In this document: piece by piece, positions 9,392 to 48,430 of the stretch
How positions within the stretch are numbered: the stretch's first letter is position 1
Layout: each line of letters begins with the position of its first letter
DNA from: Pyrobaculum ferrireducens
GTDB lineage: Archaea > Thermoproteota > Thermoprotei > Thermoproteales > Thermoproteaceae
Reading direction: 5' to 3'
DNA: 64,000 nt
Assembly (NCBI RefSeq): GCF_000234805.1
Contig: NC_016645.1
Location: 1,092,391-1,156,390, forward strand
The notes under the pieces: generated by a model
The model's input: only the letters and a program-made list of their open reading frames with translations
Database searches by the model: none
Told to the model about the DNA's origin: nothing
Translations under genes and position numbers: made by a program

Positions 9392-10183
9392 GTGTCTCTG
9401 TTGCCGCGCGATGTTTTGGCAGCACTGGAGCACGTGGTGGCAGATCTTCAAAAAGTGGGGGAGGACCTAGAGCCCGCGTCGCTACGCGGCGCGGTGCGGC
9501 ACTACATAGAAACCCCGGGGAAGTTGCTTAGGCCTATTCTGCTACTCACCTTCTCGTACAGCCTAGATAGGAGGTCTTTAATGGATCCCAGAATTATACA
9601 GGCTGCAACTATCGTAGAGCTACTACACGTGGTGTCGCTACTTCAAGATGACGTAATGGATAAACACGACGAGAGGAGAGGCGTAAAGACGCCTCGTATA
9701 CTATACGGCGACGATAGGTCTATCATAGCCAGCGACTGGCTTATTGCCGAGTCTATTAAACGTGCGGTGAGGCTTGGGCCTGAGGTTGTTGAGTACCTAG
9801 CAGACGTGGCCCAGAGGCTCTCCAGAGGCCAGGCCCTCGATCTTGACGGTGAGAGAGAAAAAGCTGCTGAGCTGAAAACTGCGCCTCTGATTGAGGCGAC
9901 ACTTGTCCTCCCCACGATACTTCTGGGTAGGCGGGAGATGATAGAGCTGGCGAGGAGACTCGGCAGATCGCTTGGCGTCTTGTATCAATACTCCGACGAC
10001 ATGAGCGACGAGGGGGTTAAGCGCGGCGCTGTTAACGAATACGCTACAGAGACCAGGAGTATCCTTGCCAAAATGCGGAGTATTGTAGGCGAGGCGCTCG
10101 CGCCTTTCGAGAAGCTTATTGATAGTTTGGTGAAAAAAGCGCTTGAAGGCACTCTCACAATAGCGCGAAACTTTATATCGTAG
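9392..10183 (+). CDS. polyprenyl (geranylgeranyl-type) diphosphate synthase family protein
   Basis: This 263-residue all-helical trans-prenyltransferase has the first aspartate-rich motif DDVMD at about residues 86-90, followed by KHDERRG. A second acidic motif, DDMSD, is at about 202-206. Such enzymes build C15-C20 or longer isoprenoid diphosphates for archaeal membrane lipids. The length is shorter than typical (about 320-330) and the second motif is not the classic DDILD, so chain length and activity are uncertain. Initiation is a GTG; an overlapping ATG at 9390 is out of frame. GATAAAAA at about 9365-9372 is the likely TATA box. Confidence 0.82.
   Translation: MSLLPRDVLAALEHVVADLQKVGEDLEPASLRGAVRHYIETPGKLLRPILLLTFSYSLDRRSLMDPRIIQAATIVELLHVVSLLQDDVMDKHDERRGVKTPRILYGDDRSIIASDWLIAESIKRAVRLGPEVVEYLADVAQRLSRGQALDLDGEREKAAELKTAPLIEATLVLPTILLGRREMIELARRLGRSLGVLYQYSDDMSDEGVKRGAVNEYATETRSILAKMRSIVGEALAPFEKLIDSLVKKALEGTLTIARNFIS
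10171..10180 (+). promoter_or_regulatory. TATA box for C/D sRNA at 10199
   Basis: CTTTATATCG is centred about 24 nt before the C box at 10199, inside the end of the prenyl synthase gene. No protein start codon lies at the expected transcription start, but the C box does. Confidence 0.55.
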
Positions 10184-10195
10184 TGATCTGCGAAA

Positions 10196-10251
10196 AACGT
10201 GATGAGGCTAGACTAAGCCGAGTTTATGACGTGGCGTGAAAGGGCTGAGGG
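10196..10251 (+). ncRNA. C/D box sRNA overlapping the THEP1 gene start
   Basis: The layout is canonical for archaeal C/D guide RNAs: C box GTGATGA (10199-10205), exactly 12 nt, D' box CCGA (10218-10221), 4-nt spacer, C' box ATGACGT (10226-10232), exactly 12 nt, D box CTGA (10245-10248). A TATA box sits 24 nt upstream of the C box. Ten consecutive bases of the D' guide (10206-10215) are complementary to nucleotides 8-17 of the tRNA-Gly at 23723. The D'+5 rule would put the 2'-O-methyl on G10. The C' box is also the ATG region of the downstream gene. C' and D' are variant boxes, so this rests mainly on spacing. Confidence 0.62.
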
Positions 10252-10744
10252 CAGAATCGGCATCTCCGGATTGCCTGGCGTCGGCAAAACCACGCTAGCT
10301 CTAAAAGTAGCAGAGCTAGCTAAGCAGAAGCTGAGCGTGTGCGGATTCGTCACTATAGAGGTAAGGGAGGGGGGTTCGCGCATAGGCTTCGACGTAGTTG
10401 AGCTCGTCGGCGGCAACCGCATGCCGCTTGCAAGAGTGGGGAGAGGGGAGCCCTCAGTGGGTAAGTACGCAGTTAGGCTAGAGGCTTGCCAGGCAATTAG
10501 AAGTGCGTTAAGCCAGCGGTGCGAGTTAAAGATTATTGACGAGATCGGCGCCATGGAGTTCAAATGCCCCAGCTTCGGCGAGTATTTACAAAACGCTCTA
10601 TACAACACGCCGAGGGTATTGGCAACAATACACAGAAATTACATAGACGTAGCTAAGAGATTTGGATTCGAGGTTTTTTGGCTAACGAGAGAGAACTGGA
10701 ACTACGTTTTTCAACAGGTGGTTGCCCGCCTAGGACTTTCCTAG
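10226..10744 (+). CDS. nucleoside-triphosphatase THEP1 family
   Basis: The 172-residue P-loop NTPase has Walker A (GLPGVGKTT, about residues 15-23) and the THEP1 signature segments ([22 protein letters not shown] and a Walker [11 protein letters not shown]). THEP1 proteins hydrolyse NTPs promiscuously and their cellular role is unclear. No TATA box stands at leaderless distance from this ATG; the nearest promoter fits the overlapping C/D sRNA that begins about 27 nt earlier. The mRNA start is therefore unusual. The 3' end overlaps the small GTPase gene by 15 nt (convergent). Confidence 0.88.
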
Positions 10745-23722: not shown

Positions 23723-23816
23723 GCGGCGGTAGTCTAGCCTGGTTTAGGATGGCGGCCTCCCACGGGAAGCCGTGGAAAGCCGTTGATCCCGGGTTCGAAT
23801 CCCGGCCGCCGCACCA
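23723..23816 (+). tRNA. tRNA-Gly (CCC) with 15-nt intron, CCA encoded
   Basis: Acceptor GCGGCGG pairs with CCGCCGC before discriminator A (23813), followed by genomic CCA (23814-23816). The T arm is CCGGG-TTCGAAT-CCCGG. The anticodon stem GCGGC/GCCGT brackets a 22-nt loop; removing 15 nt (23763-23777) at the canonical 37/38 site leaves CTCCCAA, anticodon CCC. Nucleotides 8-17 (TAGTCTAGCC) are complementary to the D' guide of the sRNA at 10196. Intron excision would use the splicing endonuclease on a bulge-helix-bulge. Confidence 0.9.
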
Positions 23817-39816: not shown

Positions 39817-39929
39817 AGCGACAAGAACATATACCCATTAAAAAACTTAAGCCGGTGACGAGATTGGTCTTAGCCGAGAGGTGACGTGGGGAACGATTAC
39901 TGATTTAAACCAGGGCAAATCCCCCCTCC

Positions 39930-48310: not shown

Positions 48311-48366
48311 ATAGTGGCTGTGCAACCCCGCGGCAGGGGGTTGGTTCACAGAGGCCCTTATGGGCC
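48311..48366 (+). other. GC-rich hairpin pair downstream of pyrH
   Basis: CTGTG (48318-48322) pairs with CACAG (48347-48351) and AACCCC (48324-48329) with GGGGTT (48337-48342). The next bases form GGCCC (48353-48357), loop TTAT, GGGCC (48362-48366). This is a compact two-hairpin structure between genes. It could be a short structured RNA (an H/ACA-like guide is one option) or mRNA 3' end. The strand was set by assuming a transcript reading through from pyrH. Confidence 0.3.
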
Positions 48367-48430
48367 GCTCCAAGCCCCCCACCCGTTATGTAGGTAGTCA
48401 TAGATATAAATGCTTTGCTACCGACCGTCA

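Follow-up and report, generated by a model that had tools for sequence, protein, structure and literature searches.

What does it mean that the second half of a guide RNA is also the beginning of a protein gene, and which of the two roles has fixed the bases that they share? This question is raised by a locus in a 64-kb window (the whole stretch of DNA analysed here, part of a Pyrobaculum chromosome that is a single contig of 2,467,972 bp). Read directly on the strand, the locus runs from 5' to 3' as GTGATGA, GGCTAGACTAAG, CCGA, GTTT, ATGACGT, GGCGTGAAAGGG and CTGA, that is, as a C/D box sRNA gene in the order C-D'-C'-D with two guides of exactly 12 nt. The C box follows RTGATGA and the D box is CTGA. 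The D' and C' boxes are degenerate, yet their TGA and GA cores are invariant in the orthologue alignment. The ATG of a THEP1 gene, identified as NTPase_1 (E 8.5e-44), sits inside the C' box (Table 1).

Table 1. Features of the window discussed in the text (positions are those of the window).
Feature	Position	Strand	Remark
TATA-like element TTTATAT	10172-10178	+	within last codons of upstream polyprenyl synthetase gene
C/D box sRNA gene	10199-10248	+	two 12-nt guides
C box GTGATGA	10199-10205	+	sequence read and orthologue alignment
D' guide GGCTAGACTAAG	10206-10217	+	first ten nt complementary to tRNA nt 8-17, N+5 = G10
D' box CCGA	10218-10221	+	CTGA in orthologue G016
Spacer GTTT (4 nt), D' box to C' box			sequence read
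C' box ATGACGT	10226-10232	+	holds THEP1 start codon; GTGARGA in sister genus
D guide GGCGTGAAAGGG	10233-10244	+	final 11 nt the same in 16 genomes; without convincing target
D box CTGA	10245-10248	+	sequence read and orthologue alignment
THEP1 family NTPase gene	10226-10744	+	first 8 codons within sRNA
tRNA-Gly(CCC), intron-containing	23723-23816	+	one of eight tRNAs with TAGTCTAGCC at nt 8-17
Second C/D box sRNA: GTGACGA, GATTGGTCTTAG, CCGA, GAG, GTGACGT, GGGGAACGATTA, CTGA	39855-39903	+	C/D pattern match
PyrR207	48319-48384	-	Rfam, 64.5 bits

Such an arrangement of boxes is rare by chance. A C/D pattern (C RTGANGA, D' CYGA, spacer of 2-8 nt, C' RTGANG[AT], D CTGA, guides of 10-13 nt) finds two matches in the window and none in 200 first-order Markov simulated windows, a count that serves as a guide to rarity and is no clean test, the pattern having been composed after the sRNA was seen. 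The other match, at 39855-39903, can be taken as a positive control, for it has the features predicted of an ordinary double guide: both of its guides match the 23S rRNA of the same genome over 10 bp, in the geometry that the D' guide of the first sRNA shows with tRNAs, at sites 876 and 906, 30 nt apart. Its D' duplex leaves the two box-proximal bases unpaired, just as the D' guide of the THEP1-linked sRNA does with tRNA-Gly and tRNA-Glu. No Rfam family matches the latter at gathering or at permissive thresholds; the best score, to sR2, is 15.9 bits against a cut-off of 42, and this similarity is one of generic boxes only. The window also holds a match to Rfam PyrR207, a Pyrobaculum H/ACA-like sRNA.

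The firmest evidence for an RNA gene comes from relatives, among them P. oguniense TE7 and Pyrobaculum sp. WP30. A sequence model built from 15 aligned copies returned one strong match (52-62 bits) per genome in 11/11 Pyrobaculum genomes and in five of the six genomes of a sister genus (g3), every copy lying just upstream of THEP1. The remaining g3 genome (G017, 73% complete) has no sRNA orthologue and is missing THEP1 too, and the same search gave no clear orthologue in the g2 genomes or in other orders. Guides measure 11-12 nt in the orthologues. The alignment is invariant in the box cores, in the GCTRGAC core of the D' guide and in the final 11 nt of the D guide. These 11 nt, fixed in 16 genomes whether coding or not, make the D guide the best-conserved element of the molecule. 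Where boxes drift they drift towards the consensus, with GTGAAGA or GTGAGGA as C' box in g3 and CTGA as D' box in G016. Conservation in 16 genomes, together with constraint at synonymous sites (see below), thus bears out what a sequence-only reading of this DNA had proposed: the C/D identity and register of the boxes, the two exact guides and a THEP1 start within the C' box. The box order beside THEP1, which that reading suggested looking for in relatives, recurs there. WP30 carries in addition a second, decayed copy (locus L199, G008:C1:339295-339343), which resembles the g3 sRNA and also the adjoining THEP1 leader of G018; it is perhaps a remnant of horizontal transfer.

Since the reading frame is closed by a TAA (10214-10216) ahead of the ATG and offers no other start before the Walker A strand, ATG 10226 is the sole plausible THEP1 start. 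The start lies inside the sRNA in eight of the genomes examined (our own, G003, P. aerophilum, P. oguniense, G007, P. islandicum, P. calidifontis and P. neutrophilum), where THEP1 opens with ATGACGTNGCGTGAAAGGGCTGA, i.e. MT(W/L/S)RERAE; in our genome the eight residues encoded within the sRNA are MTWRERAE. In G001 the sole plausible start is a GTG within the D guide. In WP30, in the metagenome-assembled genome G005 and in g3 the sRNA ends 25-263 nt upstream of the conserved THEP1 region, and the protein begins at or near its first strand. Since these non-overlapping genomes keep the sRNA without the N-terminal extension, the extension is a by-product of the sRNA.

Codon usage points the same way. 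Among the eight overlapping THEP1 proteins, invariant residues written with a single codon make up 5/5 of those wholly inside the sRNA versus 1/58 elsewhere (Fisher 8.5e-7, to be read with caution, as adjacent codons do not count as independent and the eight genomes include a closely related pair). Because the codons are fixed inside the overlap, and the same bases are equally invariant in genomes where they are non-coding, the constraint acts on the RNA. It is the sRNA, and not the protein, that dictates the first THEP1 codons. Most likely the overlap arose in Pyrobaculum, when THEP1 recruited the C'-box ATG of a pre-existing upstream sRNA; within the genus, the THEP1 tree lacks the resolution needed to count gains and losses of the overlap.

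Which molecule might this RNA guide? Bases 1-10 of the D' guide are complementary to TAGTCTAGCC at 23730-23739, nt 8-17 of a tRNA in the window. ARAGORN called this tRNA Trp(CCA), misled by the intron, and we rejected the call: with the intron removed, the anticodon loop reads CTCCCAC, so that the anticodon is CCC and the earlier assignment to glycine holds. Of 3000 shuffled D' guides, only 3 match the tRNA set over a run of 10 nt. TAGTCTAGCC occurs 14 times in the genome, namely in eight tRNA D-arms, in the sRNA itself and at five other sites that are probably coding. The eight D-arms belong to Gly (CCC, GCC and TCC), Glu (TTC and CTC) and three tRNAs reading as Pro, all matched at the same position with G10 at N+5; Val, Ala, His and further tRNAs have 9 nt in common with the complement of the guide. 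The D' guide is the only one of the two with such an N+5 target. The sequence-only reading had named G10 of tRNA-Gly as the target, on the strength of the complement to nt 8-17: both the complement and the G10 geometry stand, while the restriction to glycine was too narrow, the D-arm being shared by two Glu and three Pro tRNAs. A candidate D-arm Gm10 guide common to several tRNAs fits better than a tRNA-Gly guide.

The sister genus offers suggestive covariation between guide and tRNA-Glu. There, tRNA-Glu has changed from A9 to C9 and guide nt 9 from T to G in 4/5 genomes, restoring the pair. As the tRNA-Gly and the Pro-like tRNA of G015 retain A9, the guide would follow tRNA-Glu, not Gly, in g3. 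The exception is G018, which breaks the nt-9 pair. The other guide change in g3, of nt 5 from A to G, yields only a G-U; pairing in g3 is altogether weaker, with 6-9 Watson-Crick pairs plus G-U. Across the genus, tRNA-Glu genes (L091, L107 and others) have an interruption within the D-arm or close to its junction with the acceptor, which leaves the D' guide target contiguous in only some tRNA-Glu precursors.

Alternatively, the sRNA could be real and its D' guide act on 23S rRNA near LSU nt 423 (CTTAGTTTTGCC), the strongest rRNA candidate, the tRNA match being secondary. This site pairs over 12 nt with one mismatch and one G-U, includes the box-proximal bases that the tRNA duplex leaves unpaired, and is found in 7/9 Pyrobaculum 23S sequences. 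However, the mismatch is internal, a further one appears in P. oguniense and P. aerophilum while the guide is unchanged, the site is absent from the best matches in the sister genus, and about half of shuffled guides attain an rRNA run of this length, all of which makes an rRNA target distinctly improbable. Somewhat less improbable, but still unlikely in our judgement, is that the sRNA works mainly through its D guide, on another, perhaps imperfect, target, and that the D' match leads to little or no methylation. The invariance of its last 11 nt speaks for it, as would U34 of tRNA-Glu(UUC), which lies at N+5 of a duplex with nine Watson-Crick pairs and one G-U. That match is no better than expected by chance: it is mismatched in the middle, and 2706/3000 shuffles give an equal run. 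A search of the 16S and 23S rRNA of the same genome, of 13 other rRNA loci and of tRNAs, together with a scan of five genomes for exact 10-mers, returned no conserved target for the D guide, rRNA included; the exact sites in the five genomes have no homologous context in common, and in G015 the only perfect 10-nt match is the sRNA itself.

A more radical alternative dispenses with the guide RNA and sees a C/D-like shape only: a conserved mRNA leader with k-turns, on which L7Ae would repress THEP1 translation. Indeed, in Sulfolobus L7Ae represses the translation of mRNAs in whose leader or coding sequence it binds a k-turn (PMC5539422), and the start codon is covered by the element. Yet the element is separated from the gene, by as much as 263 nt, in WP30, G005 and every sister-genus genome, and there too its guides are conserved; nor does a k-turn require two exact 12-nt guides. 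We consider this reading highly improbable.

How the two genes are transcribed bears on how they could share an RNA. A TATA box had been noted 24 nt before the C box; the element is present, although 24 nt is roughly the distance to its centre, and TTTATA begins 27 nt before the C box. A TATA-like motif lies 25-29 nt before the C box in our genome, G003, P. aerophilum, P. oguniense, G007, P. islandicum and P. neutrophilum. It keeps this position although the sequence between it and the C box varies, as would fit a putative promoter for transcription from the 5' end of the sRNA. In P. calidifontis and G001 no TATA was found before the C box, which abuts or overlaps the upstream stop codon, so that the sRNA is there probably released from a longer transcript. 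Transcription of the sRNA is thereby predicted to differ among Pyrobaculum species. For THEP1 itself, the invariant C box occupies the place 25-30 nt before the ATG where the TATA of a leaderless promoter would have to be. With that promoter excluded, the layout makes it most likely that the leader of the THEP1 mRNA is the 5' half of the sRNA, and a choice between guide and message for one transcript is plausible on the same grounds.

We therefore favour, as the probable explanation, a C/D 2'-O-methylation guide whose 3' half doubles as the first eight THEP1 codons, whose D' guide would address G10 of tRNA-Gly, -Glu and -Pro, and which would share its transcript with THEP1. Box anatomy, conservation, linkage to THEP1, the start codon in C' and the RNA-level constraint on codons can be read from the genomes; the working of the system is predicted from them. 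A guide RNA of about 50-55 nt and the THEP1 mRNA would derive from one transcript, and L7Ae, Nop5 and fibrillarin would assemble on the C/D and C'/D' motifs of the guide RNA. The D' guide would then, through 10 bp, place a 2'-O-methyl on G10 of the shared D-arm. A single molecule might become either an sRNP, with the start codon buried in C'/D', or a message. One may go further and imagine that sRNP formation on the nascent RNA masks the THEP1 start codon in the C'/D' motif and withdraws the message. THEP1 output would then depend on the demand for the Gm10 guide, which would also write the N-terminus; such a bifunctional transcript is a tentative idea, and we would doubt it rather than expect it.

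The locus is of interest as a well-documented case of one DNA stretch serving as both guide RNA and protein N-terminus across most of Pyrobaculum. Its before and after are recoverable, with the sister genus retaining the sRNA just upstream of THEP1. It also predicts a specific ribose methyl at G10 in several tRNAs of hyperthermophiles. Archaeal Trm11 N2-methylates tRNA G10 (PMC6313347); if the prediction is true, Gm10 and this modification would together give an N2-methylated Gm, a kind of nucleoside whose sites are mostly unassigned.

Compared with known systems, the sRNA has the box order, 12-nt spacings, N+5 geometry, dual guides and size of archaeal C/D box sRNAs that assemble with L7Ae, Nop5 and fibrillarin; it differs from the canonical form in its degenerate D' (CCGA) and C' (ATGACGT) boxes and in a D guide without a recognised target. 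The latter has parallels, given that tRNA-targeting C/D sRNAs of Pyrobaculum typically have one tRNA guide and another without target (PMC7994747). As far as they are described there, the tRNA sRNAs of Lui et al. (2018) show the same combination of one D-arm guide common to several tRNAs and one targetless guide, and the present family may already be among the 110 listed by these authors. Overlap at the 5' end of a downstream gene concerns 7% of archaeal C/D genes, and 5'-overlapping C/D genes lowered expression of a downstream reporter (PMC7994747). In the account that the same source gives of Tripp et al. (2017), such genes likewise overlap the start of the downstream ORF, with the start codon as a rule either within a guide or beyond the D box; here, by contrast, the C' box holds it, and at least eight genomes retain the overlap. 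The sRNA/THEP1 arrangement clearly exemplifies a known, if uncommon, kind, and the placement of its start codon in the C' box is unusual.
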